From NCBI GenBank assembly GCA_947652115.1, contig OX393573.1, positions 11,160,481 to 11,224,480 on the forward strand: a stretch of 64,000 bases of DNA, read 5' to 3'. The notes under the pieces were generated by a model that was not told the DNA's origin, made no database searches, and worked only from the letters and a program-made list of their open reading frames with translations. This document shows positions 10,264 through 34,831 of this stretch, one piece after another. The translations under genes and the position numbers were made by a program. Positions within the stretch are counted from its first letter, which is position 1, and each line of letters opens with the position of its first letter. Source of the stretch: Blastomussa wellsi (taxonomy: Eukaryota; Cnidaria; Anthozoa; Scleractinia; Plerogyridae).

Positions 10264-10606
10264 AGTAGTAAGTGCCTATACTTTGGGGCACAACCAATCA
10301 GAATCGAGTATTTTTTGAATGGACCAATCAGGAGGCCGTATATCGAACACGTGACTTTTCTAAACCGCAAATTGCGTCAGCAAAAACGTCACAAGGTCAT
10401 GAACCAATCAGGAGACAGTATTTGAATTCAAAATTTTTTAATGGTCACACAAGATACATGTCACGCAAAAAAAGCTGGTAACGAGTTCAATAACGAGTTC
10501 AATGTCATGCAATACATTTCACGCAATACATGTCACGCAAAAAAAACTGGTAACGAGTTCGATGACGAGTTCAATAACGAGTTCAATAACTAGTAACGAG
10601 TTCAAT
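10264..10606 (+). repeat. Left terminal inverted repeat
   Basis: Matches the reverse complement of 34489-34831 with only a few mismatches in 343 bp (for example CGTATATC versus CGCATATG). It starts AGTAGTAAGTGCC and contains three ACCAATCAG (CCAAT-box) sites near 10304, 10324 and 10402. Its inner part is an array of GAGTTCAATAAC-type phrases interspersed with 'catgtcacgcaaaaaa'. The open frame running through it (10272-10481) is present in both repeats and is probably not a gene. Confidence 0.93.
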
Positions 10607-10660
10607 AACGAGTTCAATAACTAATAACGAGTTCAATGACGAGTTCAATGTCAATTCTTC
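10485..10660. repeat. GAGTTCAATAAC-type short tandem phrases
   Basis: About nine degenerate copies of the 12-mer 'acgagttcaata/g' run from the inner terminal repeat into unique sequence just left of the first gene. The mirror array in the right repeat is shorter. The copy number differs between the two ends, suggesting expansion after replication. Confidence 0.75.
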
Positions 10661-11689: not shown

Positions 11690-11760
11690 TGGGGTGGGGG
11701 GGTATCCCCCCTTTTTCATTGACCAATCAGGAACCAGCTCCTGGCCTATATAAGTGGAGA
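11690..11760 (+). promoter_or_regulatory. CCAAT/TATA promoter module of the RING locus
   Basis: Consists of a G-run/C-run hairpin-like 'gggggggtatcccccc', then GACCAATCAGGAACCAGCTC with CCAAT at 11723-11727, then CCTATATAAG with TATATAAG at 11747-11754. The first ATG of the RING gene is 31 bp beyond the TATA box. A near-identical module drives the F-box-like locus at 26437-26500. Confidence 0.8.
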
Positions 11761-11784
11761 CCTGACTTTGTTTGTTTGTTTGCG

Positions 11785-12132
11785 ATGGCATTGCCTAGAA
11801 GGAGTAGACGATTGGCAGGACTTGGACCGGAGAAAGAGCTTTACAGTGACATTTGTTTTATTTGTTTGTTGCCCCTTGATGTCGGTTCGTTGTTGAATTG
11901 TACGGTGTTGGAGTGTTGCGGCAAATTCATTCATGATAGATGTCATAAGAATTTGAGTGCTCGTCCTCGCGTGACTTGTGGACATTGCCGTAAACCAATT
12001 TTTTTTGCGTCTGACGAATCGCCTGAAGACCCTGAGGAACATGCGGAGACGGCCCTTAGACGCATTGAACTTTATCGTCGGGAGCGACTGTATCGTTCGT
12101 TCCATGCACCTGGAACTGTATCGTACAACATG
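11785..12132 (+). CDS. RING-locus exon 1: RING-type zinc finger
   Basis: ATG at 11785 follows the TATA box by about 30 bp. The 116 codons encode a basic N-terminus (PRRSRRLAG), then a RING-like C-x2-C (CFIC) near residues 31-34. A CCGKFIHDRC segment supplies Cys/His ligands and CGHC closes the finger, so spacing is RING/RING-variant-like. RING fingers usually act as E3 ubiquitin ligase modules that bind E2 enzymes; function here is inferred. The exon ends at a phase-0 donor ATG|GTGAGT (12133). The 69-nt intron to the acceptor at 12201 has no stop and is a multiple of three, so retained and spliced forms are both in frame. Confidence 0.8.
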
Positions 12133-12201
12133 GTGAGTATTTGTTGTTGTTGTGGGCGAGCGCAAAGAGTAGTGGGATTGATTGTTTTTTTTTGTTTGCA
12201 G

Positions 12202-12373
12202 ATACCTCATCCATTTGACGAGGACGTTTGGCTTAAGCTGTTAGAGATTGCTGAGCAAATAGTCAACAATAGACACTTGATTGATCGCCATCACCGCGTT
12301 GTGATCAGAGGAGAAGTGTACTCGTACCACGAGTTGGATGCGACGGATGAACTGTACATCGAGGAAATTTTAC
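12202..12373 (+). CDS. RING-locus exon 2: constant segment before variable tails
   Basis: Preceded by a pyrimidine-rich acceptor (TTTGTTTGCAG). The 57 codons have no recognised domain: acidic/hydrophobic, starting IPHPFDEDVWLKLLEIAEQI and rich in His/Asp/Glu toward the end (EVYSYHELDATDELYIEE). It ends at a phase-1 donor C|GTAGGT (12374). Reading through the donor gives one C-terminus. Splicing to any of four downstream acceptors gives others. This exon is the common hub of the array. Confidence 0.75.
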
Positions 12374-12540
12374 GTAGGTTTTTTACTTTTTATATTTTTC
12401 ATCCGCGATTTATTCGTCGTTATGGGTTTATTCGCACCGTGTGTTTTCATTTGAATTATTATTTGTTGGAGAGTGCTGCGTTTGTTTTTTGCAGTAACAT
12501 GAGTTGGTATCATTATAGTTCGGATCATATGTGGTTGTGA
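12374..12540 (+). CDS. RING-locus tail A (read-through of the phase-1 donor)
   Basis: If the donor at 12374 is not used, the frame stays open for about 54 codons to TGA at 12538-12540. The tail is aromatic- and Arg/His-rich (FTFYIFHPRFIRRYGF near its start), a composition shared with the alternative tails downstream. That similarity supports its being a real alternative C-terminus rather than intron. No domain is recognised. Confidence 0.5.
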
Positions 12541-12565
12541 TGATTTTCTTTTGTTGTTTTTTTAG

Positions 12566-12720
12566 GAAATTTTATAACTGAAGAATTGTTAATGGCAGAG
12601 AGATATTGCACTGATTTTGTTTTTGAATGTAATTATTCGGGTTGTTTTGATTTTGACTTTTACGAGTGCGATTCTGTTATTTTTTTTGAATCGTTTTATT
12701 TTCAATATCGGAGATTGTAA
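12566..12720 (+). CDS. RING-locus alternative terminal exon B
   Basis: Acceptor TTGTTTTTTTAG at 12565. Two bases complete the phase-1 codon left by exon 2, then 50 sense codons follow to TAA at 12718-12720. Composition is rich in Phe, Tyr, Asp and Glu with several cysteines (FECNYSGCFDFDFYECD). No known fold. Either other phase meets a stop within five codons, so the exon is specifically matched to the exon 2 donor. Confidence 0.7.
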
Positions 12721-12742
12721 CCGTTGTCTCTCGTTTTCTTAG

Positions 12743-12924
12743 GTGGTTTTGTGCGTCACATGTGTTTTGATAGATTTCGTACTGTGATTGACTTTGTTTG
12801 GCATAGAGAGTTTACACCGTGGTTGACTGATGAAACACAACATGAACATGTGATTGAAATGTATGATTTGCGTGTTCGTTTCGTTTCCGAAGAAGACGTG
12901 TGGGTGTATGAACGCACTCTTTGA
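12743..12924 (+). CDS. RING-locus alternative terminal exon C
   Basis: Acceptor TCGTTTTCTTAG at 12742, phase-1 compatible, then 59 codons to TGA at 12922-12924. Begins GGFVRHMCFDRFRTVIDFVW. Aromatic-rich with His/Glu. Its opening G-x-F-V/M matches those of exons D (GDFVQM) and E (GHFMNT), suggesting these exons arose by duplication. Confidence 0.72.
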
Positions 12925-12936
12925 TCTTTTTTTTAG

Positions 12937-13097
12937 GTGATTTTGTGCAAATGGTTTGCGATAGAAGATTTTCACTCGATTATTTTGATTTTCAATTCAC
13001 GTGGATGGATGGAATGAATGGATTGTTTTTTCCTGCCGATGGTCTTTTTTTCCGTTCTCTGCGTCATATTTGGCGTATTAGACCAGTTAGATTGTGA
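12937..13097 (+). CDS. RING-locus alternative terminal exon D
   Basis: Acceptor CTTTTTTTTAG at 12936, only 12 bp after the stop of exon C. It continues in phase 1 for 52 codons to TGA at 13095-13097. Starts GDFVQMVCDRRFSLDYFDFQ. Basic, Phe-rich C-terminus. Unknown fold. Confidence 0.72.
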
Positions 13098-13128
13098 GAG
13101 ACAATTTAGTTTGTTTTTTTCGTTGTAG

Positions 13129-13310
13129 GTCATTTTATGAACACTGTGTTGCTTGGAAGATTGCAGTCTTTCAATATTGTATTTGAAATTCAATACTATG
13201 ATCGATTTCGTTATATCAATTTCATTTTTGGTTTTCCTGTTTTGCCTGTTACGTTATTTTATGTTAAAATAACTTGGTACGAATGGATGCGAAGACGAGA
13301 CACGCAATAG
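13129..13310 (+). CDS. RING-locus alternative terminal exon E
   Basis: Acceptor TTTTTTTCGTTGTAG at 13128, phase-1 compatible, 59 codons to TAG at 13308-13310. Starts GHFMNTVLLGRLQSFNIVFE and ends in a basic WMRRRDTQ. Last member of the array. The convergent PLA2-like gene ends 53 bp beyond. Confidence 0.72.
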
Positions 13311-23758: not shown

Positions 23759-24754
23759 ATGGAGCAAGCAGAGATGCCGGAGATGAAGCAGGAAGAAGAA
23801 CTGACAGACCAAATAAAGTTTTTGCAAAGTGAACAAGGTAATTATATTCATTATCAACCCGGTGACGCATCGCCAATTTTGACTAAAAAAACAAAAAAGT
23901 CAAACCGCGGCAAAAAGAAGAAGAAAGGAGATGAATCTCCCACACGTTACATGTTGCCTAAAGATTTCCCACCTGCTTCCAACAAGAAGAAGAAGAAAAA
24001 GACAAAGAAAGAAGTTGTGGAAGTGATGGAAGAGGGTGAAATACCGTCGTACGATGAAGCCATTGATTTTTTCAACAAGTTCTTTCCACAAGCAGAAGTG
24101 AATTGTCCGATTCACAACAATGTTCCACTTCAAGAAAAAACAGCAAGCAATGGATGGAAGTACCTGGTTTGCGGTGTGGGAAGAGATGATCGTAAAGATC
24201 AATGTTTTGTCTTGGTGGACAAAAACGAAGCCAAAACGTATATCGACATCGTTCGAAATACGAACACTGTGATGACTTACTACTCAAACAACCTGGATAA
24301 ATTGTTGTGTTACTGCGACGAACCAATCATTCTCAGCATCTCCAATTCGACGAAGAATCCAGATCGCCCTTACTTCCGCTGCAGACGAAACATGTGCAGA
24401 TTCTTTCAATGGAGTGATTTGCTGCCAAGAGGAAAAGTCTTGGCTTGGATAGAAGGAGGAAAACGTCATCATGGCAACACCCATTGGTCCAGAGATGAAC
24501 AAGGTTACCCATTGAGAGGACAAGATTCTCCTTGGTATCACAAACCTACCTACACAGATATCAATTCCATTCCTTTTGATCAATCGTTGTGGCTGGAGTG
24601 TCAAAAAGTAAACATTGCGTTTTTGGAACATAATCAAGAGGTGATAAGTCCTCCAGAAATAAAGGGATGTCACTATACCGAAGAGAATGAACCTGCGTTG
24701 AAGAATCAGATTTACATCAAACGTCTGATGAAGAAGCATGGACTAACAGGATGA
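23759..24754 (+). CDS. GRF-type zinc finger protein (331 aa)
   Basis: The first 100 residues are acidic then strongly basic (KKGDESPTR, KKKKKKTKKEV). A first Cys/His region follows (CPIHNNVPL...YLVCGVG). At about residues 184-222 is a GRF finger: CYC, then RPYFRCRRNMCRFFQWSD. GRF fingers bind single-stranded DNA in topoisomerase III, APE2 and NEIL3, so a role in replication or repair is likely (inference). The stop overlaps the next ATG (ATGA), tying it to the exonuclease-like gene. I chose ATG 23759 because it follows the TATA box by 36 bp. Confidence 0.78.
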   Translation: MEQAEMPEMKQEEELTDQIKFLQSEQGNYIHYQPGDASPILTKKTKKSNRGKKKKKGDESPTRYMLPKDFPPASNKKKKKKTKKEVVEVMEEGEIPSYDEAIDFFNKFFPQAEVNCPIHNNVPLQEKTASNGWKYLVCGVGRDDRKDQCFVLVDKNEAKTYIDIVRNTNTVMTYYSNNLDKLLCYCDEPIILSISNSTKNPDRPYFRCRRNMCRFFQWSDLLPRGKVLAWIEGGKRHHGNTHWSRDEQGYPLRGQDSPWYHKPTYTDINSIPFDQSLWLECQKVNIAFLEHNQEVISPPEIKGCHYTEENEPALKNQIYIKRLMKKHGLTG

Positions 24755-25272
24755 AAGAGAAAGTGTGTATGATATTAGACTTGGAGGGATTTTTCGTCAA
24801 CAAGAAATTTCAAGTGCGGGAACTGGGATATTACGCTTGGACAGGAGATCACGGACGATACTCATTTTACGCAAAAGTGCCTTGGTACAATTTATCCAAA
24901 GAAGACAAAAGAACTGTTGCCTTTCAAAAGTATAACATTCACGGACTGACGTACGATCCAATAAAACAAGAAAGAGGATACGAGTCTCACCAGTTGGAAG
25001 AGATATTGATGAATTTGTATCAGAACAACAAATGCAATGAAAGATATGTAATAGCCTACAAAGGAGGACATGTGGAAAAAGATTTGTTGAATAGACTTAA
25101 CATTCAAAGTTTAAACCTTGAAGTGTATAATTGTCCTAAATACGAAATACTAAAATCGAGTGTTGTCGAGCCTTTGCCCGATTGCGGATTTCATTTCAAT
25201 TGTTGTAACACTCATTGCAGCATGGTCGAATGTCATGCTTTTTGGTTATGGATGAACACTTACGTAGAATAA
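24751..25272 (+). CDS. DEDD-type exonuclease-like protein (173 aa)
   Basis: Looks like a DnaQ/RNase-T-fold protein: an N-terminal DLEGFFV (D-x-E), a middle AYKGGHVEKDLLNRL where H-x3-D fits the second motif, and a C-terminal HCSMVECHAFWLWM. Similar stand-alone proteins occur in other animal Polinton-like elements. Catalytic activity is uncertain because not all motifs are classical. The stop TAA (25270-25272) sits inside AATAAA (25269-25274), which is also the poly(A) signal. It forms a two-gene unit with the GRF-finger gene. Confidence 0.7.
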   Translation: MKEKVCMILDLEGFFVNKKFQVRELGYYAWTGDHGRYSFYAKVPWYNLSKEDKRTVAFQKYNIHGLTYDPIKQERGYESHQLEEILMNLYQNNKCNERYVIAYKGGHVEKDLLNRLNIQSLNLEVYNCPKYEILKSSVVEPLPDCGFHFNCCNTHCSMVECHAFWLWMNTYVE

Positions 25273-25417: not shown

Positions 25418-25702
25418 CTACAAACAAAAAGCCTTCACGAAATCTATACGAGCGAGTGCCGCATCAAGATTCTCACCTAGAAAAATGGTTGCAAACTTCC
25501 ACTCCTCAATATCATAATATTCTCCATATATTGATCCACAGCAAGTCAAGAAAACGCGACCACCCCACTTGGCTCTTATCTTGCCCCATTTTATCTCCTT
25601 CACAAACTTCTCGTGATGAGCGTTGTGCACTCTGTGGATAGGCTTTGTACATGTAGGAGGTTCCTGGCCACAGACTACACAGCATGAAGGCATACAAGAC
25701 AT
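25418..25702 (-). CDS. Cys/His-rich small protein (94 aa), possible alternative exon
   Basis: Begins MSCMPSCCVVCGQEPPTC, and a HRVHNAHHEK helix follows, so a zinc site is likely. The rest is Trp-rich (WGKIRAKWGGRVFL). Just before its ATG on the minus strand is a good acceptor TTTTATTTCATCAG. The upstream gene at 25784 contains a donor-like ATTC|GTAAGG in the matching phase. It may therefore be an alternative C-terminal exon of that gene rather than a separate gene. A poly(A)-like AATAAA lies leftward near 25300. Confidence 0.5.
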   Translation of the reverse strand: MSCMPSCCVVCGQEPPTCTKPIHRVHNAHHEKFVKEIKWGKIRAKWGGRVFLTCCGSIYGEYYDIEEWKFATIFLGENLDAALARIDFVKAFCL

Positions 25703-25783
25703 GACTGATGAAATAAAACAAAAATCAAAATGATAACGCAATAAAATACAGAACAACGGTCGATGAAATAGTTAACTACATGT

Positions 25784-26038
25784 TCACAAAAATGGTTTTC
25801 CATATAAAACAATGTCCGCCTTACGAATGGCGTCACGCAGTTGCCAGAGGCGGTTTTGGTATTCTTCACAACCTCTGGCAACGCGTGCAAGTGAAACAAT
25901 GTTTCTCATCAGTCTCCGCAAAACTTTAACTAGCTTCTTGTGTCTGCTGGTGTGCTGATTTTCTTTATCCTCTACTAACATTCTCTCGCAGGTGACAAGT
26001 CTAACTTTGCTTTCACGAAAAATGTCCACAGGCTCCAT
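25784..26038 (-). CDS. Basic helical protein (84 aa), unknown
   Basis: ATG 26038; Arg/Leu-rich helices (KKLVKVLRRLMRNIVSLARV) and one REC/CEEY region. A pyrimidine-rich AG (ATTTCACTATCAG) lies just upstream, so the first exon may be elsewhere. A phase-1 donor (ATTC|GTAAGG) inside could link it to the Cys-rich exon at 25418. Not recognised. Confidence 0.5.
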   Translation of the reverse strand: MEPVDIFRESKVRLVTCERMLVEDKENQHTSRHKKLVKVLRRLMRNIVSLARVARGCEEYQNRLWQLRDAIRKADIVLYGKPFL

Positions 26039-26095
26039 GACTCACGAAATACTCAAAGGACAACTGATAGTGAAATAAAAAACAAAAAATGTAGA

Positions 26096-26359
26096 TCAAG
26101 GATCTAATTTATCAAACGTCTCTGACCATCTTAGCAAGTCGATCCACAAGGAACGCACTTCAGTTTCATCTGCAGTTGCATCCCAGGATAATTGCAGTAT
26201 CCTGTCAAGAAACCAGGGGCCATCTTCTATTAACTCTACCATTTGTAAATAAGTTTCACCTTTACAATTTTCTTTGTGCGCTTCCAACTTTGCAGACATC
26301 AACGTGGTAGCCTCTTCGTAGGTGTCCAGCAACAGTTGCTTCTCTATTCTCTCGCTCAT
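26096..26359 (-). CDS. Acidic helical protein (87 aa), unknown
   Basis: ATG 26359, TGA at 26096-26098. Helical and acidic (LDTYEEATTLMSAKLEAHKE) with Trp in the C-terminal half. A leftward TGTATATAAGG about 35 bp upstream is a good TATA box, and the gene is divergent from the F-box-array locus. No family recognised. Confidence 0.6.
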   Translation of the reverse strand: MSERIEKQLLLDTYEEATTLMSAKLEAHKENCKGETYLQMVELIEDGPWFLDRILQLSWDATADETEVRSLWIDLLRWSETFDKLDP

Positions 26360-26403: not shown

Positions 26404-26436
26404 ATTCAAAACAGGTCACGTGACAGCAATTGTATG

Positions 26437-26500
26437 GGGATGGGGGGGTATCCCCCCTTTTCATCAACCAATCAGGAACCAGCTCATGGCCTATATAAGA
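26437..26500 (+). promoter_or_regulatory. CCAAT/TATA promoter module of the F-box-array locus
   Basis: Contains 'gggggggtatcccccc' followed by AACCAATCAGGAACCAGCTC (CCAAT at 26468-26472) and GGCCTATATAAG (TATATAAG 26492-26499). It differs from the RING-locus module at only a handful of positions. The leader ATG is 44 bp past the TATA box. Confidence 0.82.
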
Positions 26501-26543
26501 AACTCACTTGCAGCGTTTGCTTCATTCTCAAGTTCGACACAAG

Positions 26544-26636
26544 ATGGGAAGCAACGATGAGAGAGAAAAGTTATGGAGGAAGAAAGGGCCGATGCAATGG
26601 GAGTTTCTTGGAGAAGAAAAAGAAACAGAAGAAGAG
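26544..26636 (+). CDS. Common leader exon of the F-box-array/polymerase locus (31 codons)
   Basis: Starts at ATG 26544, about 45 bp after TATATAAG. Encodes a charged segment (MGSNDEREKLWRKKGP, then an E/K-rich end EEKETEEE). It ends at GAG|GTAAGA (26637), a near-consensus donor in phase 0. Reading through the donor leads directly into module 1. Splicing can lead to any of eight downstream phase-0 acceptors. A functional role for the leader itself is unknown. Confidence 0.75.
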
Positions 26637-27233
26637 GTAAGAAGTCATTGGGATGTATTGCCAGAAGAAATCAAAGAAAAGATACAATGGGCAAGTGTAG
26701 AAATGCATGTACGGGAACGATCGAACACTCCTTACGAGATTAAAAAGCTAGAAGTAAATGAAGATAATCATTATCTCCATCTGCCTGTGACTTTGGCCTT
26801 TCAACACTACACATGCATGAAAACTGTCATGTTAGACAAGAGCAAAACAGAATTTGGAACTTGGGAATTAATTCATTTATTCTTGGATCCTTGCGAAAGT
26901 TGCGATTCATTCCTCTCTCGTTACGAAGAAAAAACAAATGAAACGGGACAAATTGTAAATCAAGGAACATTGTATGGTGATGGTGATTCGGATCGAATTC
27001 CTTTCGTGAAAACGGATGAAAACAATGAACGATGGTTTCATCAAGAATGTATAATGCATGATCACCCTGACAAACATGGACATTGTTGTCTGTGTTCAAC
27101 ACATTTCGATCCGGAAAAGGCATGCGATGACAAACGTCACTTCTTCCCGTATCCCAGAGATGAAAAGTACAATGAAATCAAAAAGTTACCGTTTTGCGAT
27201 GAAGGTAAATTGGTTGTTCATTTTCTTGTTTGA
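26637..27233 (+). CDS. F-box-like/zinc module 1 (read-through)
   Basis: Immediately after the leader: SHWDVLPEEIKEKIQW, an F-box-like helix pair. It then has a longer spacer than the other modules, and CESCDSFL with a closing WFHQECI. A second Cys/His set (CCLCSTHFDPEKAC) follows. F-box motifs usually bind Skp1 and bring substrates to cullin ubiquitin ligases; similarity here is to the 'LPxEL...I' core only. Stop at 27231-27233. A GTAAAT at 27206 is out of phase with all downstream acceptors, so it is probably not used for chaining modules. Confidence 0.68.
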   Translation, partial: VRSHWDVLPEEIKEKIQWASVEMHVRERSNTPYEIKKLEVNEDNHYLHLPVTLAFQHYTCMKTVMLDKSKTEFGTWELIHLFLDPCESCDSFLSRYEEKTNETGQIVNQGTLYGDGDSDRIPFVKTDENNERWFHQECIMHDHPDKHGHCCLCSTHFDPEKACDDKRHFFPYPRDEKYNEIKKLPFCDEGKLVVHFLV

Positions 27234-27246
27234 AATTTCATGGCAG

Positions 27247-27687
27247 ATAATCAGTCATTGGGACATTCTTCCCGTAGAAATACAGCAAAAGATACAATGG
27301 AAAGCGGATCGTTTGATGATTGAGACAAAACGTTATCGTAATTTCAAGTATTGGTTCAACTTGAAAGTTGTATTGGATCAATGTTGTCATTGCGGATTCT
27401 TCATAGACATGAAACATCGCATGAATGAAGAAGGAAATTACAAAAACAGATTCTTATTTCAAAAAAGTCACATTTGGGACTTTGATCGTTTACCTTCTCG
27501 CATGATTGAACAGAGTGGGGAAAAATTAACGTCGTGGAAACAATACATTCGTACCGTGACCGTGGGAGAACGCGTAACATTTTACGACGAAGGATTATGG
27601 ATACACCCAGATTGCATTATACCCTATCACATTTCTATTCGCAGGGAATGGGAGTCAACCCATGGGATCGATTACCAGACGAACTGA
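27247..27687 (+). CDS. F-box-like/zinc module 2
   Basis: Acceptor TTTCATGGCAG at 27246, phase 0. Starts IISHWDILPVEIQQKIQWKA, then CCHCGFFIDMKHRMNEEGNY and a final IHPDC. The Cys and His spacing (C-x2-C ... W-x-H-x2-C) recurs in the family and could bind zinc. The frame stays open past the acceptor of module 3 to TGA 27685-27687. Confidence 0.72.
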   Translation: MISHWDILPVEIQQKIQWKADRLMIETKRYRNFKYWFNLKVVLDQCCHCGFFIDMKHRMNEEGNYKNRFLFQKSHIWDFDRLPSRMIEQSGEKLTSWKQYIRTVTVGERVTFYDEGLWIHPDCIIPYHISIRREWESTHGIDYQTN

Positions 27688-28043
27688 AACGAATCATACA
27701 GCGACAAGCTGATGAAATCATGATCAATATCATTCACCATTCACCTTATTGGCCAACTTTGTTCAATTACTTGGAACCTTGTATTTATTGTCATAGTTTC
27801 ATATACTATGATTCAATGGAAAAACCTTCGTCATATCTATGGTTAAAATCGCGTTTACCTTGGCACTATTACACAACGGATGGAAGATATGTATCTGCAT
27901 TTTACGTTGACAGAATCGAAAACGATGTATCTGCATTTTACGTTAACAGAATTGAAAACAAAAACAGAATGAAACCAGAACCAAGATGGATCCATTGCTA
28001 TTGCATTGGAAATCACTTTCTATGCTCAAACTTTTCACAGTGA
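27645..28043 (+). CDS. F-box-like/zinc module 3
   Basis: Acceptor TTTCTATTCGCAG at 27644, phase 0. 132 codons: GVNPWDRLPDELKRIIQRQA, then EPCIYCHSFI and a closing RWIHCYCIG. It contains an internal duplication (two copies of VSAFYV-D/N-RIEN around 27888-27961). Closest in sequence to module 4. Stop at 28041-28043. Confidence 0.72.
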   Translation, partial: GMGVNPWDRLPDELKRIIQRQADEIMINIIHHSPYWPTLFNYLEPCIYCHSFIYYDSMEKPSSYLWLKSRLPWHYYTTDGRYVSAFYVDRIENDVSAFYVNRIENKNRMKPEPRWIHCYCIGNHFLCSNFSQ

Positions 28044-28061
28044 TCACATTTCTGTTCGCAG

Positions 28062-28478
28062 GAAGCGGGAGTAAATCCATGGGATCGATTACCAGACGAA
28101 CTGAAACGAATCATACAACGAAAAGCCGATCAAATCATGATCAATATCATTCACCATTTACCTTATTGGAATGCTTTGGATTCGATCTTGGACCCTTGTA
28201 TTCATTGTAACACTTTCATTCACACTTGCGGCTCGAGTTACTGGCCGCCGTCTCTATGGTACAAATGCACTTTACCTTGCTACTATTTCGAAAATGATGG
28301 TGACGTGAACGAATTTTACATTGACAAATTCAAACAAGTAGACTTACAACGCACAAGAGAAGTACTGAAAAATCATTCTGAATCAAAATGGATTCATTTG
28401 TATTGCATCGGAAATTACCTTTTATCCTTTCCAGTAGAAAAAAGACCAAGATTAAAAAGAATGTTTCCTATCTTTTAA
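28062..28478 (+). CDS. F-box-like/zinc module 4
   Basis: Acceptor TTTCTGTTCGCAG at 28061, phase 0. 138 codons beginning EAGVNPWDRLPDELKRIIQR, almost identical over its first 35 codons to module 3, with DPCIHCNTFI and KWIHLYCIG. Indicates a recent tandem duplication. Stop TAA at 28476-28478 lies inside the pyrimidine tract of the next acceptor. Confidence 0.72.
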   Translation, partial: EAGVNPWDRLPDELKRIIQRKADQIMINIIHHLPYWNALDSILDPCIHCNTFIHTCGSSYWPPSLWYKCTLPCYYFENDGDVNEFYIDKFKQVDLQRTREVLKNHSESKWIHLYCIGNYLLSFPVEKRPRLKRMFPIF

Positions 28479-28481
28479 CAG

Positions 28482-28880
28482 ATGAGTCTATGGGATTTTC
28501 TACCGGAAGAGATAAAACTAAAGATTTTGTGGATGGCTGATAAAATGGAACGCAAATTGGAACATAGAAGATTCAGGCAATATTTAAGAAACTATACGAA
28601 ACCATGTGCCACGTGCGGTTTGTTCTTGGACATGAATCAACGAATGAACAAAAGGGGAGACATCTACGGTTCACCGCGCAATATCCTTGATTTCGAACGC
28701 ATGCCTAACATAAAGAATGAATTCGGTAAAGAAGATTGGCATCACTACGAATGCGTGAAAGATCGTTTTCATCCCATGGTGCAACATTACTTCGAACGTT
28801 ATAAACAATATCATTACAAACAAAAGAAGCAAAATAAAAAAAGAAGGAAACTCATATTCACCACGGCTTTCTCTGATTGA
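28482..28880 (+). CDS. F-box-like/zinc module 5
   Basis: Acceptor CTATCTTTTAACAG at 28481; the exon itself begins with ATG. SLWDFLPEEIKLKILWMADK, then KPCATCGLFLDMNQRMNKRG and WHHYECV, followed by a long basic tail (KQKKQNKKRRK). Stop TGA at 28878-28880. Because it starts with ATG, it could also be made from an unspliced message by internal initiation. Confidence 0.7.
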   Translation: MSLWDFLPEEIKLKILWMADKMERKLEHRRFRQYLRNYTKPCATCGLFLDMNQRMNKRGDIYGSPRNILDFERMPNIKNEFGKEDWHHYECVKDRFHPMVQHYFERYKQYHYKQKKQNKKRRKLIFTTAFSD

Positions 28881-28903
28881 CTTTTTTTTCGGTCTTTTTG
28901 CAG

Positions 28904-29257
28904 AGTCATTGGAATTTTCTGCCAGAAGAAATGAAACGAAAAATTCAATGGCTTTCGGACAAATCGCATGTGGAAGACAAACTCGAATACAACCATGGAT
29001 TTTGGTTCAAGTTTCACTTACGATTATTTCCTTGTCGACTTTGCGGTCACTTCGTGAACACGAGAGACAGATTAGAACCGTCAGGGAACTTCAAACAAGA
29101 GGATGCATACCCTGTGATCTGTAGGATAGCTCATCAGACATTCAACAATCCGTATATAGATCAATGGGATTATCGGCATGGACTAACGGATGAGGGTTAC
29201 CTTTTTTTATTAATAATGAGTCCTCCCTTTGAACACAAGTGTTTTGATTGCAGATAA
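28904..29257 (+). CDS. F-box-like/zinc module 6
   Basis: Strong acceptor CGGTCTTTTTGCAG at 28903, phase 0. SHWNFLPEEMKRKIQWLSDK, then FPCRLCGHFVNTRDRLEPSG. The closing His/Cys cluster is diverged (FEHKCFDC). Stop TAA at 29255-29257 overlaps the acceptor of module 7. Confidence 0.7.
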   Translation, partial: SHWNFLPEEMKRKIQWLSDKSHVEDKLEYNHGFWFKFHLRLFPCRLCGHFVNTRDRLEPSGNFKQEDAYPVICRIAHQTFNNPYIDQWDYRHGLTDEGYLFLLIMSPPFEHKCFDCR

Positions 29258-29598
29258 AGAGTCACTGGGATGTATTACCGGAAGAATTGAAAAGATACAT
29301 TCAATGGCAGGCAGACATCATGCATGTCAAAGACAAACTCAATTACAACAATCAGATTTGGAAATCATTTCATTTTTGGTTTATGGGTCGATGTATATAT
29401 TGCGATTGTTACCTGAACATGAAAAACAAAATAGACGCAGAAGGCAATTACAAGTGCGAATCAGAAAAAATATGGAAAAAAAGACAATGGGTAGACAACA
29501 AAGAATGGGAAGCAGTATTCAGTGTATATGACGATCCTCCCACAACAAAACATTACTTTCAACATTGCGATTGTGTATTGTTTTCTCCGCACAGATGA
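29254..29598 (+). CDS. F-box-like/zinc module 7
   Basis: Acceptor GTTTTGATTGCAG at 29253, phase 0. IKSHWDVLPEELKRYIQWQA, then GRCIYCDCYLNMKNKIDAEG and a closing HCDC. Near-identical to module 8 over the first 27 residues. Stop TGA at 29596-29598 lies just past the acceptor of module 8. Confidence 0.72.
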   Translation: MKSHWDVLPEELKRYIQWQADIMHVKDKLNYNNQIWKSFHFWFMGRCIYCDCYLNMKNKIDAEGNYKCESEKIWKKRQWVDNKEWEAVFSVYDDPPTTKHYFQHCDCVLFSPHR

Positions 29599-29894
29599 AG
29601 AGTCACTGGGATGCATTACCAGAAGAATTAAAAAGATACATTCAATGGCAGGCAGATCTCATGCACGTAAAAGAGAAAAAGAAAGTGTGGTCAAAAACAT
29701 TGAACACTTTCAGTTATTGTCGACGTTGCAATTTTTTTCTGGAAATGAGACACAGGCTTTGGAAAAATGGAGACATACGAGGAAACCCCACATTTATAGA
29801 CAACACATGGCGAATACCAACCATGTGTCATGTAAATCCAAGTCAATCAGATTGGCATCACAATTATTGTTGTCTTGACATGATTGCAGATTGA
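29595..29894 (+). CDS. F-box-like/zinc module 8
   Basis: Acceptor TTTTCTCCGCACAG at 29594; exon begins ATG, phase 0. Shortest module (99 aa): KSHWDALPEELKRYIQWQAD, SYCRRCNFFLEMRHRLWKNG, closing DWHHNYCC. Stop TGA 29892-29894 overlaps the polymerase exon's start region. Confidence 0.72.
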   Translation: MKSHWDALPEELKRYIQWQADLMHVKEKKKVWSKTLNTFSYCRRCNFFLEMRHRLWKNGDIRGNPTFIDNTWRIPTMCHVNPSQSDWHHNYCCLDMIAD

Positions 29895-32800
29895 TGACGA
29901 AACCATGATCGAGGCGGCAAGTGAATGGGAACGCGGATTTGATTTCATTTTGACTCCACACGTGGACAGACGATTGAGACGATTTGATTTACATCACAGA
30001 AGTTACACGGCGCGATTGGCACAGCGCGGTGGTGCATTGGTCAACTTGGACAGAGCCGTATTGCCGGGACAAATCGAGGATGCCTTGCAACGCAGCATCA
30101 ACGAACAAATATTAGAAGACTCAGAAGTACGACCCGACGATCATTTGTTGATTAACATCAACTCGAACAGACTGAGAAACGCTTATCATTCAAGACGAGT
30201 GCGAGTGCGTGATTGGAGAAACAATGCATTGATTGCTCGCACCGTTTTGGAAGAATTAAGCAGACTGTTGAACTCCAACGAAAATTTCAGAATGGATGAT
30301 ACGTTTAACTTGAACATTTCTCACATAAAAGCCACCGGGACGGGAAGCGGACGAAAAAAACTGGGAACGAAGCACATTGAGAAACTCTTGAACGACAAAA
30401 AGTCAGTGATCAAAATCAAAAACACGGACGAACTGTGTTGTGCCAGAGCTTTGGTCACCATCAAAGCTTACCGCGATCTAGGTAGTAGACACAGTACCTA
30501 CAATACTTTGCGAAGGGGAAGATCAATGCAAGAACGACAAGCCAAAGAATTACACGCCTCGGCCAAAGTACCCGAAGGACCCTGCGGCTTGACTGAAATT
30601 CTACAATTTCAGACTTACCTGAAAGAGTACCAGATCGTAGTGGTTTCCGTGGATCACGGTTACCAATTCATTTTCAAGGGGCCGGACCAACCCGAAGATA
30701 AACTACTTGTCTTAATCAAAGTGGGAGAACATCACCATGCGTGCAACTCGCTGAAAGGATTCTTTGGCAAAGCCCATTTCTGTCTAGCGTGCGAAAAATC
30801 CTTCGAGCGTGACAAATGGAGAAATCACAGATGTAAAGGAAAGCGATGTCATGCCTGTCATCAATTGAATTGCCCAGATTTCACCAAAGTCGACAAAGGT
30901 ACCAAAGCCATAGTTCCTTGCAACGATTGTGACCGCTCGTTCTTCGGAGACGCGTGTTTTGCTCTGCATAAGAAACAACAAGAAGAAAGCGGGAAAAAAG
31001 TGGAAAAAAACACCAAGAACAGCGTTTGTCACATGCATAAGAAATGTAAGAATTGTAGCAAGACACTGACCAATTACGAAATGGACATAGGCAAACACGT
31101 GTGCGGCTACAGCCAATGCCCTTCCTGCAAACGATACTTGAACTTGTATCAACACACATGTTTCATTCAGAACCCAAACGAAATGGAAGAAAAAAGAAAA
31201 AAGAGAAAGAGAAAAGCGGACGACACTCAACCAGAAGAACCTCCCATTTTTGTGACTTGGGATGCCGAAGCCATGCAAGAAAGAGGAATTCACGTACCCA
31301 ATTTGATTTGTGCCATGACCTCGAACAGTAACTTGCAACACAAGTTTGAGGGTTCGACATGTGTGACAGACTTTCTCGACTGGTTACGAGAAATAGCCAT
31401 CGACAATAAAGTCATTGCCATTGCTCACAATTTCAAAGGGTACGATTCCTACTTCATTTTGAACGAACTATACCGTCAAGGCATCTGTCCGGATCAATTG
31501 GTAAACGGAAGCAAGATTTTGTCGATGAAAGTTCACGACATCGAATTCAAGGACTCGATGTGTTTTCTTCAGATGCCGCTTTCTGCCTTCCCAAAATCAT
31601 TTGGACTGACGGAACAGAAAAAAGGGTTTTTCCCTCATTTCTTCAACATTCCAGACAACCAATCGTACGTGGGTCCCATTCCGGCACGCGATTATTACGA
31701 CCCGGGAGGTATGAAACCAGAAAGAAAAACAGAATTTGACGAATGGTACAAAAAAATGAAAGAGGAGAATCACCTGTTTGATTTCCAGGCGGAACTGTTG
31801 GCCTATTGCCAATCGGATGTGAAATTGTTACACGACGGATGTAAGGTGTTTCGACAACAATTCAAACAAGTGGCCGGATTCGATCCCATGGAAAAATGTT
31901 TGACCATCGCCTCGGCTTGTAACCTGTACTATCGCACAACATGCATGCCCAATAACTGTTTGGCTTCGGAACCAGTGCGGGGTTGGCACGGAAAAGGAAA
32001 ACCTCACTCCCAGGCTTCCATCGAATGGTTACATTACTTGAACCGCAATGCTACATCGACAGACCGTGTGACGCATGCCAGAAACGGTGGAGAACACGTG
32101 ATCCGTGTGGGCAACAGACGAGTTCACGTAGACGGGTACGCGGCGTCCACCAATACCGTGTATGAATTCTACGGTTGCTTCTATCACGGTTGCCCCACTT
32201 GTTTTCCAAACCGATACCAGAAACACACCAAACTGGACGAACGTACCATGCACGACGTGCACGAAACCACGCAACGTCGAGCCGATCAGATCCGACACGC
32301 AGGTTACAATCTCATGGAAATATGGGAATGCCAATGGAACAATCTCAAAAAACGAGACACGGAAATTCAAACCTACCTGAAATCTTTAAACTTGACGGAA
32401 CGACTAGAGCCCAGAGATGCCTTTTTCGGGGGTAGAACCAATGCGGTCAAACTTCATCACAAGACGCAAGAGGGTGAAAAGATCCATTACGTGGATTTCA
32501 CGTCACTCTATCCCTACGTCAACAAAAACTGCGTTTACCCCATAGGACATCCCGTCATCGTGCTAGAACCAGGGCACACAGATCTATCCGAGTTTTTCGG
32601 GCTTGCCAAATGCACTGTGTCACCACCCTACGGGTTATACCACGCCGTCTTACCCTATCGCAGCGGCGGAAAACTGACCTTCCCGTTATGCCGCACCTGC
32701 GTAGAAACGGAACAATCCAAACCCTTAACAGAACGCAGCGCAAGTTGCAGCCACACGCTCAAAGAAAGGGAACTAACCGGTACTTGGTGCACCCCTGAAT

Positions 32801-33852
32801 TGGAAGAAGCAGTGCGTCAAGGCTACGTGATCCAACACGTGCACGAAGTGTGGCATTTTCAAAACACGTCCGACACGTTGTTCAAATCGTACGTGAACAC
32901 TTTCCTGAAAATCAAGCAAGAAGCCAGCGGGTGGCCAAAACGGGTCGGGAACGACACCGACAAACGCGTGAAATACATCACGGACTATGAGAAAAAGGAA
33001 GGAATCAAATTAGAACCCGACAAGATAGAAGAAAATCCGGGAAAACGATCTCTAGCCAAAATGATGCTCAACTCTTTCTGGGGAAAGTACGGGCAACAAA
33101 GTAACAAGACTCAAGTTCAAACGTACACCAGTCCGGCCCTATTCCACAAGTTATTGGAAGACGACAGCAAGGAAATAAATGACATCCGCATCGTAAATGA
33201 GGAAATGATCGAAGTCGTACACAAGTATCAAAGCGAGTGTGACCCCATTCAAGTAAACATAAACATTTTCGTGGCTTGCTTCACCACTTGCTGGGCAAGA
33301 CTACGATTGTATCAAGAAGGTCTCTCAAAACTGAATCCTCTACAGACTTTGTACTTTGACACTGACTCCATCATTTATTCCCACAAAGGAAATGAACCCA
33401 GTTTACCATTGGGTGATTTCCTGGGAGAATACACAGACGAATTGAAAGACCCGGATGATCACATTGTAGAATTCGCTGCTGCAGGACCCAAGAATTACGG
33501 GTACCGAACCATGAAGGGAAAAGTAGAATGTAAGGTGCGTGGCTTCTCGCTGAACACACGCGGACAAGAACAGTTAAACTTTGAAATCCTAAAAGAAAAC
33601 GTCATGGATGAAGTGACAAAACCTTTGGAGGAAAAACAACGGCAGATTCCCGTCTTCAATCCATTCAAGATCACAAGAGACAATAAAACCAAACATTTAG
33701 AAACAATGACCGAAATAAAACGTTACCAAATCGTTTTCGACAAACGAGTAGTGGATCCCATCACGTTTCACTCTTACCCATATGGCTATCACGAAGAATT
33801 CGAATGGAATGAACAAGATGAACTCAATTTGCAAAGTTTATTGCTTTTTTAA
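29890..33852 (+). CDS. Protein-primed family-B DNA polymerase (about 1,315-1,320 aa)
   Basis: A phase-0 acceptor at 29889 would join the leader. Alternatively ATG 29905 starts the protein without splicing. Positions from that ATG: a basic N-terminal region, Cys/His-rich fingers (about 295-430), exonuclease motifs with D453 (WDAEA), N509/D514 (HNFKGYD) and Y634/D638 (YCQSDV). Next is a YEFYGCFYHGC endonuclease-like insert typical of Polinton polymerases. Polymerase motif A has D864 (DFTSLYP), B has K1052-N1056 (KMMLNSFWGKYG) and C has D1152/D1154 (YFDTDS); a PKNYGY follows. It replicates the linear genome using a terminal protein, probably its own N-terminal region. It contains AQRGGA near residue 37, a possible protease site. 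All key residues are present. Confidence 0.94.
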   Translation: MDDETMIEAASEWERGFDFILTPHVDRRLRRFDLHHRSYTARLAQRGGALVNLDRAVLPGQIEDALQRSINEQILEDSEVRPDDHLLININSNRLRNAYHSRRVRVRDWRNNALIARTVLEELSRLLNSNENFRMDDTFNLNISHIKATGTGSGRKKLGTKHIEKLLNDKKSVIKIKNTDELCCARALVTIKAYRDLGSRHSTYNTLRRGRSMQERQAKELHASAKVPEGPCGLTEILQFQTYLKEYQIVVVSVDHGYQFIFKGPDQPEDKLLVLIKVGEHHHACNSLKGFFGKAHFCLACEKSFERDKWRNHRCKGKRCHACHQLNCPDFTKVDKGTKAIVPCNDCDRSFFGDACFALHKKQQEESGKKVEKNTKNSVCHMHKKCKNCSKTLTNYEMDIGKHVCGYSQCPSCKRYLNLYQHTCFIQNPNEMEEKRKKRKRKADDTQPEEPPIFVTWDAEAMQERGIHVPNLICAMTSNSNLQHKFEGSTCVTDFLDWLREIAIDNKVIAIAHNFKGYDSYFILNELYRQGICPDQLVNGSKILSMKVHDIEFKDSMCFLQMPLSAFPKSFGLTEQKKGFFPHFFNIPDNQSYVGPIPARDYYDPGGMKPERKTEFDEWYKKMKEENHLFDFQAELLAYCQSDVKLLHDGCKVFRQQFKQVAGFDPMEKCLTIASACNLYYRTTCMPNNCLASEPVRGWHGKGKPHSQASIEWLHYLNRNATSTDRVTHARNGGEHVIRVGNRRVHVDGYAASTNTVYEFYGCFYHGCPTCFPNRYQKHTKLDERTMHDVHETTQRRADQIRHAGYNLMEIWECQWNNLKKRDTEIQTYLKSLNLTERLEPRDAFFGGRTNAVKLHHKTQEGEKIHYVDFTSLYPYVNKNCVYPIGHPVIVLEPGHTDLSEFFGLAKCTVSPPYGLYHAVLPYRSGGKLTFPLCRTCVETEQSKPLTERSASCSHTLKERELTGTWCTPELEEAVRQGYVIQHVHEVWHFQNTSDTLFKSYVNTFLKIKQEASGWPKRVGNDTDKRVKYITDYEKKEGIKLEPDKIEENPGKRSLAKMMLNSFWGKYGQQSNKTQVQTYTSPALFHKLLEDDSKEINDIRIVNEEMIEVVHKYQSECDPIQVNINIFVACFTTCWARLRLYQEGLSKLNPLQTLYFDTDSIIYSHKGNEPSLPLGDFLGEYTDELKDPDDHIVEFAAAGPKNYGYRTMKGKVECKVRGFSLNTRGQEQLNFEILKENVMDEVTKPLEEKQRQIPVFNPFKITRDNKTKHLETMTEIKRYQIVFDKRVVDPITFHSYPYGYHEEFEWNEQDELNLQSLLLF

Positions 33853-34104
33853 TGACTCCTTCAGCACATTCAGATCATACTTTCCACTGTTGAAACCATC
33901 CACCAAGAAGTTATGGAAAGCTCCATCTCTGATACGCCTTTCACCACGGTTTCCTGCATGTGTCAAAGAATGACAGCGGGGCAGTTCCACTTTACCATCT
34001 TCTTGCAAAGAATACACAAAGGTGTGCACGCCAAAGAGTTCATCCAGAGTCTTAAAGAACTTGTCCCATCGTCTGCATTGGTAGGACTTGGCATATTTCT
34101 TCAT
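33838..34104 (-). CDS. Small right-end protein (88 aa), unknown
   Basis: ATG 34104. Basic, aromatic-rich (KKYAKSYQCRRWDKFFKTLD), not recognised. It overlaps the polymerase 3' end by 15 bp tail-to-tail. Its stop TAA lies within a leftward AATAAA, the same economy as at 25269-25274. Upstream sequence is open for about 17 codons after a stop, so a spliced 5' exon is possible. Confidence 0.55.
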   Translation of the reverse strand: MKKYAKSYQCRRWDKFFKTLDELFGVHTFVYSLQEDGKVELPRCHSLTHAGNRGERRIRDGAFHNFLVDGFNSGKYDLNVLKESLKKQ

Positions 34105-34344: not shown

Positions 34345-34488
34345 GCTGGCGTTCAGAGTCTGATGGAGAGTATGGAAAACGCAAGAAAAAAACAGTGGTT
34401 GGTCTTTTGATTTTGTAGACGCAGAAGACAACAATAGTAAACATGGAATGTAATTTTCAAGTTGTCTTAACTCGTCATTGAACTCGTC

Positions 34489-34831
34489 ATTGAACTCGTT
34501 ACTAGTTATTGAACTCGTTATTGAACTCGTCATCGAACTCGTTACCAGTTTTTTTTGCGTGACATGTATTGCGTGAAATGTATTGCATGACATTGAACTC
34601 GTTATTGAACTCGTTACCAGCTTTTTTTGCGTGACATGTATCTTGTGTGACCATTAAAAAATTTTGAATTCAAATACTGTCTCCTGATTGGTTCATGACC
34701 TTGTGACGTTTTTGCTGACGCAATTCGCGGTTTAGAAAAGTCACGTGTTCCATATGCGGCCTCCTGATTGGTCCATTCAAAAAATACTCGATTCTGATTG
34801 GTTGTGCCCCAAAGTATAGGCACTTACTACT
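34489..34831 (-). repeat. Right terminal inverted repeat
   Basis: Reverse complement of 10264-10606 with few mismatches, and the same AGTAGTAAGTGCC end at 34831. High similarity between the repeats suggests a young insertion or gene conversion between ends. Confidence 0.93.

Follow-up and report, generated by a model that had tools for sequence, protein, structure and literature searches.

We analysed a stretch of 64,000 nucleotides from the coral Blastomussa wellsi (contig OX393573.1, positions 11,160,481 to 11,224,480; hereafter the window), in which a Polinton/adintovirus-type element of 24.6 kb spans positions 10264-34831 and ends in terminal inverted repeats. Probably, this element employs the splicing of its host as a selector of protein cassettes, in two separate arrays. 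In the proposed mechanism, one promoter with a TATA sequence would make one pre-mRNA, and the single leader donor of the first array (array 1), at 26637, would be joined to one of several phase-matched acceptors. The outcome of this choice would be either one of eight small proteins, one of which arises by read-through, or the DNA polymerase of the element (PolB), and the messages of array 1 are assumed to share their 3' ends. In a second array (array 2), five unrelated cassettes would be served likewise, in phase 1, by another copy of the promoter and a RING-like leader (11785-12373). A first-pass annotation, made from the letters alone, had proposed one N-terminus combined with eight alternative modules. 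That scheme agrees with the sequence as far as it goes, but it was incomplete, because PolB and the second array had been missed.

The leader exon of array 1 (26544..26636, on the plus strand, as are PolB, the array-2 leader intron and all the exons, cassettes and promoter repeats described below) starts with the ATG at 26544, comprises 31 codons and ends in phase 0 at the donor GAG/GTAAGA, just as first annotated. The leader donor at 26637 scored first of the 324 GTs in 26440-33900. The leader is preceded by a promoter repeat (copy 1, 26435..26499), which is 85% identical to 11690-11754 and contains what we take to be a CCAAT-like motif and TATATAAG. One such repeat lies before the array-1 leader, and none was seen before any cassette. 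Concerted evolution of the two promoter copies was also considered and was not supported, as the mean score was 89.6 within elements and 87.8 between them.

Eight cassettes follow the leader. Cassette 1 (26637..27233) is entered by read-through of the donor, as had been suggested and as the sequence supports, and encodes 229 amino acids including the leader. The other seven open at predicted acceptors, and the start positions given here are the first exon bases: cassette 2 (27247..27687), cassette 3 (27645..28043), which overlaps the end of cassette 2 in a different frame, cassette 4 (28062..28478), cassette 5 (28482..28880), cassette 6 (28904..29257), cassette 7 (29254..29598) and cassette 8 (29595..29894). 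The first-pass annotation had found the same sites, although its coordinates referred to the last base of the AG. Its statements that all seven acceptors are in phase 0 and that every cassette has its own stop were both correct. Each of cassettes 6, 7 and 8 has a stop that overlaps the acceptor following it, and cassette 2 continues for 42 nucleotides past the acceptor of cassette 3. Cassettes 4, 6 and 7 lack an in-frame ATG ahead of the conserved motif; in these three, as in PolB, the stretch from the in-frame stop to the acceptor contains no ATG. At each of the eight acceptors, that of PolB included, the longest frame is the one in phase 0 (99-146 codons for the cassettes, 1320 for PolB). 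Furthermore, when scored with a simple position table based on general knowledge, the eight acceptor AGs scored higher than the 147 remaining AGs in 26660-29950 (Mann-Whitney p = 7.7e-6). This agrees with the earlier description of a pyrimidine-rich tract at every acceptor, but some of the tracts are not strong. Within cassette 3, a 36-nucleotide in-frame tandem duplication was observed at 27889-27959, and some other copies of the element have a shorter cassette 3 without it.

The eight cassettes are paralogues with a mean column identity of 28%. They have in common a 56-nucleotide start, and the residues W, L, P, E, I, C, C and W are invariant among them, so that the common opening pattern described before was found in all eight. 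The first 27 codons of cassettes 7 and 8 showed 1, 1 and 7 differences at codon positions 1, 2 and 3, respectively, as expected for coding sequence. Between cassettes 3 and 4, the differences were 3, 3 and 4 of 36 per codon position, with no coding-type bias.

The host assembly (367.8 Mb in 124 contigs) was searched for further copies, and the query of leader plus cassette 1 gave at least 88 matches. We used 31 near-complete copies and five diverged ones; most of the remaining matches (fragments and single cassettes) were left out. TATATAA was located upstream of the array-1 leader in 29 of the 32 copies (the window and the 31 near-complete ones), and the leader donor hexamer was kept in 30 of the 31 others and lost in one (L036). 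The acceptor of each downstream cassette was defined as the best AG from 30 nucleotides before to 3 nucleotides after the motif. By this rule, 192 of the 197 downstream acceptors in the 32 copies were in phase 0 and 194 were CAG, with the five exceptions found in L015 (two), L022, L023 and L040. The distance from donor to acceptor was spread over the three remainders modulo 3 (75/50/72), which indicates that the exon phase is kept and the genomic frame is not. In the five diverged, older copies, the leader donor is at the same place, 9 nucleotides ahead of cassette 1 and in phase 0, in all five; the second and third cassettes are in phase 0 in all five, whereas later cassettes sometimes are not, and the copies themselves are broken. 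Phase-matched predicted acceptors behind a single donor, kept in the copies, make array 1 a candidate alternative 3' splice-site array; the acceptors may all open into a single long 3' region, or each cassette may be a genuine terminal exon with its own 3' end.

The cassette content differed between the copies, with about 5-9 cassette starts recognised per copy. Two type-3 cassettes were present in L025 and two type-7 cassettes in L026. Type 7 was absent from L014, L018, L020 and L021 (one cassette of L020 has no assigned type), and type 3 was absent from L033. Truncated cassettes were found in several copies and a stop in the leader in two, and some copies have decayed. Cassettes would be gained and lost as units of an acceptor plus a cassette, with conserved starts and fast-changing bodies.

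PolB (29890..33852) opens at a phase-0 acceptor, ATTGCAG/ATTGATGAC, with the in-frame stop ending at 29883 and the first ATG at 29905. From this arrangement we infer that PolB belongs to the acceptor set of array 1 and can be joined to its leader. The exact string around this acceptor was found in 27 of the 32 copies. A PolB acceptor was also readable in three of the five diverged copies (L042, L043 and L044) as a CAG ahead of a homologous acidic start, read by eye; the PolB proteins of these three are about 32-37% identical to that of the window over the aligned start. In L042 a stop follows soon after the acceptor, and L044 has an in-frame ATG farther upstream. Another family in this genome shares 56% PolB identity; in one copy of it (L078), PolB starts at an ATG of its own and the 4 kb upstream contain no array, and a copy of a 43% family (L079) has no cassettes either. 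A strong acceptor, TTTTTTCGATAG/GTCAACATGACT, was observed directly before the PolB ATG of the former (L078:3961), where capsid-type genes instead of cassettes are located upstream.

The second array, at 11690-13310, has a leader of two exons followed by five short cassettes unrelated to those of array 1. Promoter repeat copy 2 (11690..11754) contains TATATAA in all 21 copies of this array. Leader exon 1 (11785..12132) has a RING-like Cys/His pattern, named by eye; this leader gave no match in Pfam, and none of the 217 candidate protein homologues of its frame reached E <= 0.01. The leader intron (12133..12201, ATG/GTGAGT ... TTTGCAG/ATACC) is followed by exon 2 (12202..12373), which ends at a weak phase-1 donor, TTTTAC/GTAGGT. 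Cassette a (12374..12540) would be reached by read-through, and cassettes b (12566..12720), c (12743..12924), d (12937..13097) and e (13129..13310) by phase-1 acceptors. Of 54 AGs, these four acceptors rank highest. The phase-1 frames behind them have 50, 59, 52 and 59 codons, compared with 0-26 in the other phases, and a frame of at least 51 codons has a chance of 0.038 each in shuffled sequence. The acceptors b, c, d and e were located in 20, 20, 19 and 18 of the 21 copies, respectively. Most of the phase-1 frames hold their length across the copies, and one copy of e is frame-shifted. A further T-rich acceptor, TTTTTTGCAG/TAACATGAG, the fifth best of the 54 AGs, was seen at 12495 within cassette a.

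The leader intron of array 2 also bears on splicing. All three sites were callable in 16 of the 21 copies, where the intron length is 64-77 nucleotides; the other five, with altered donors or a missing end, were not scored. The spliced leader exons are open in 14 of the 16 scorable copies. In 10 of these 14, the intron length is not divisible by three, and 3-7 stops interrupt the frame when the intron is retained. Since the intron breaks the frame while the exons are kept in frame, splicing is needed in this leader. This is strong evidence, at the level of sequence, that the array-2 leader gene is spliced now or was until recently.

The ratio of nonsynonymous to synonymous substitution rates (dN/dS) was counted on intact frames only. 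The value was 0.15 for the array-1 leader (18 distinct sequences), 0.11 for the array-2 leader (13 distinct) and 0.23 for the start of PolB (13 distinct). The array-1 cassettes gave 0.51-0.92 as a whole, 0.17-0.87 in the first 30 codons and 0.65-1.0 in the bodies after codon 30. In array 2, cassettes a, d and e gave 0.45, 0.34 and 0.82, and c gave 1.61 from three sequences. Because drift after insertion pushes dN/dS towards 1, the contrast counts here and not the level. By this contrast, the predicted frames of both leaders are constrained, and those of the array-1 cassette bodies are little constrained.

Several observations weigh against selection by splicing. Among the 182 AGs of 26660-30400, the acceptors at 27247 and 29254 rank 27th and 25th and the PolB site 16th, three unused AGs are within the top four, and four of the eight array-1 sites rank 8th or lower, three scoring about 1.4 or less. 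The exon-2 donor of array 2 falls outside the best 10 of 138 GTs, and for cassette d phase 0 exceeds phase 1 in 3 of 19 copies. PolB could start at its first ATG with the loss of five codons. Across the copies, which are not independent of each other, acceptor AGs were not significantly better kept than other AGs (p = 0.096), a comparison that does not discriminate because the copies are too young. A processed, intronless genomic copy was searched for and none was found; one search for spliced copies returned 16 matches, each of which proved to be read-through sequence at the end of a leader. Some features of the cassettes also resemble those of independent genes: an ATG stands right at the acceptor of cassettes 5 and 8, in-frame ATGs occur in cassettes 2 and 3, TATA-like hexamers are present at 28800, 29153 and 29394, and cassettes 4 (28451) and 5 (28833) are the only ones with an AATAAA/ATTAAA signal close to their end. 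The same signals occur inside the coding part of other cassettes, and the stretch from the PolB stop to 34500 contained none.

Taken together, these features could mean that the cassettes are separate small genes, with their own promoters or on a polycistronic RNA with internal initiation, the acceptor-like sites being relics or chance. The TATA-like hexamers about 100 nucleotides ahead of the cassette 6 and 7 acceptors are the best support for this view. We regard it as very improbable, as cassettes 4, 6 and 7, and 103 of the 197 cassettes across the copies, have no ATG ahead of the conserved start, the acceptor phase is maintained across the copies, and one promoter repeat precedes the leader while none was seen ahead of a cassette. 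It is likewise improbable that only PolB, perhaps with cassette 1, is functional and that the remaining cassettes are tandem duplicates decaying within the leader intron of PolB. The drift of the cassette bodies and the truncated cassettes would fit such decay, but the starts of cassettes 2, 3, 5, 7 and 8 are constrained (dN/dS 0.17-0.46), none of the eight frames is interrupted in the window, nearly all of the acceptors are in phase, and array 2 has the same layout without a PolB behind it. Chaining of the cassettes into multi-cassette proteins by in-cassette donors is extremely improbable. A fair donor exists at 27205, the second best of the 324 GTs, but it is out of phase, as already annotated, only 16% of the 31 other copies retain its hexamer, and a stop ends every cassette; the earlier judgement that chaining is unlikely is supported. 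The choice of one acceptor per message by host splicing remains our preferred explanation, and the predicted splice sites, their phases, their maintenance across the copies and the requirement that the array-2 leader intron be spliced out were demonstrated directly on the sequences.

The cassettes were first described as F-box-like. This identity was not supported, as none of 22 cassettes matched an F-box family in Pfam. PRANC gave a single match among the 22 (E = 0.22). Like PRANC and F-box sequences, the cassettes open with W-D-x-L-P-x-E-hydrophobic. A predicted cassette model was confident for residues 1-30 only, with helices at 4-7 and 10-42, a predicted template modelling score (pTM) of 0.33 and weak prediction beyond residue 45. 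The F-box fold, which binds SKP1, has three helices; in the model, one long helix is predicted at 10-42. Zinc-type ligands, CxxC...Hx2-3C, are present in seven of the eight window cassettes, not in cassette 6, and CxxC followed by Hx2-3C was found in 165 of the 194 cassettes of at least 90 amino acids in the 32 copies. This arrangement may resemble CCHC sites of the PARP or LIM type. We read the cassettes as a helix-plus-zinc module family with an LPxE helix motif, predicted zinc binding and no known relative. Other profile searches gave no better family, with a phrog without a name matched at E = 0.013, the search of PDB sequences gave nothing meaningful, none of 373 candidate protein homologues reached E <= 1, and viral contigs searched with the cassettes gave no match. 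No LxCxE motif was found in the cassettes or in the array-2 leader. A weak THAP-like stretch was observed at the end of cassette 1 (27080-27160; E = 0.0021, below the cut-off). The leader would dock a common partner while the cassettes choose targets, and the term recognition modules, used in the first-pass annotation, may suit the cassettes in this sense.

The assignment of the element to the Polinton/Maverick-adintovirus type is based on its ends and genes. The left terminal inverted repeat (10264..10630) is 367 nucleotides long and 98% complementary to the right one (34465..34831), neither having an assigned strand, and such repeats of a few hundred bases are shared with Polintons and adintoviruses. 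The element encodes a family B DNA polymerase of the protein-primed type (DNA_pol_B_2, PF03175, E = 1.1e-38) with relatives in corals, a retroviral-type integrase (rve, PF00665, E = 2.3e-13), and weak matches, just below the curated cut-offs, to an adenovirus-type protease (Peptidase_C5, E = 6e-4) and an A32-type ATPase (Pox_A32, E = 2e-4). A phospholipase A2-like protein and a GRF-like zinc protein, with a match just under its cut-off, are also encoded, and the candidate capsid protein had no match in Pfam. PolB had 1385 relatives among 8000 scored candidates, and among the matches listed the nearest were 71% and then 66% identical (Oculina patagonica), with other corals lower. The leader motif was not found in 120 PolB relatives among the matches listed. 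Viral contigs searched with PolB gave no match, and an alignment-based search gave one distant locus. An Oculina patagonica gene model fuses PolB to a relative (P0003) of the gene upstream of array 1 (24751-25272), suggesting that the two genes lie next to each other there. Between the plus-strand upstream gene and the array-1 promoter, three short open reading frames (112, 84 and 87 amino acids; 25418-26359, minus strand) were noted.

By splicing of this kind, one small element could yield many proteins with a shared front end. If so, a virus-like element keeps an interchangeable protein repertoire compactly behind one promoter, two unrelated arrays reach the same layout with cassette content varying between copies in one genome, and the way in which Polintons meet host defences becomes testable. 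It would also suggest that replication is coupled to splicing through PolB. We are evenly divided on the wider reading that the arrays are two splice-driven diversity units of conserved leaders and fast-changing cassettes, in which the set of host- or rival-binding proteins could be changed without new promoters and PolB is on the same switch; as part of it, the 31-residue array-1 leader may be a docking peptide. Genes of this kind, in which the conserved part is not preceded by a start codon, would then be broken up or overlooked by standard gene calling.

No shared-leader cassette array in a Polinton or adintovirus was found in the literature searched, including passages of PMC11071296. In Drosophila lola, as described in PMC1947980, common N-terminal exons are spliced to unique C-terminal exons, most of which encode zinc fingers. 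The arrays of the element follow the same plan, in which a common front end is joined to variable C-terminal parts. However, lola is spliced to separate exons both in cis and in trans and carries a BTB domain, whereas the element has a 31-codon leader, abutting or overlapping cassettes within one element, and an unspliced form that is also open. The plan of lola is also that of mod(mdg4). One donor or leader is joined to many acceptors in the adenovirus major late unit and the polyomavirus early region as well. In adenovirus the leader does not code for protein and the bodies are genes unrelated to one another; in polyomaviruses the shared N-terminus is coding, but two or three products are made, not tandem related cassettes that gain and lose units. 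The plan itself is of the known lola type, and the literature searched contained no case of its occurrence twice in one Polinton, as predicted here, with gain and loss of units among the copies.

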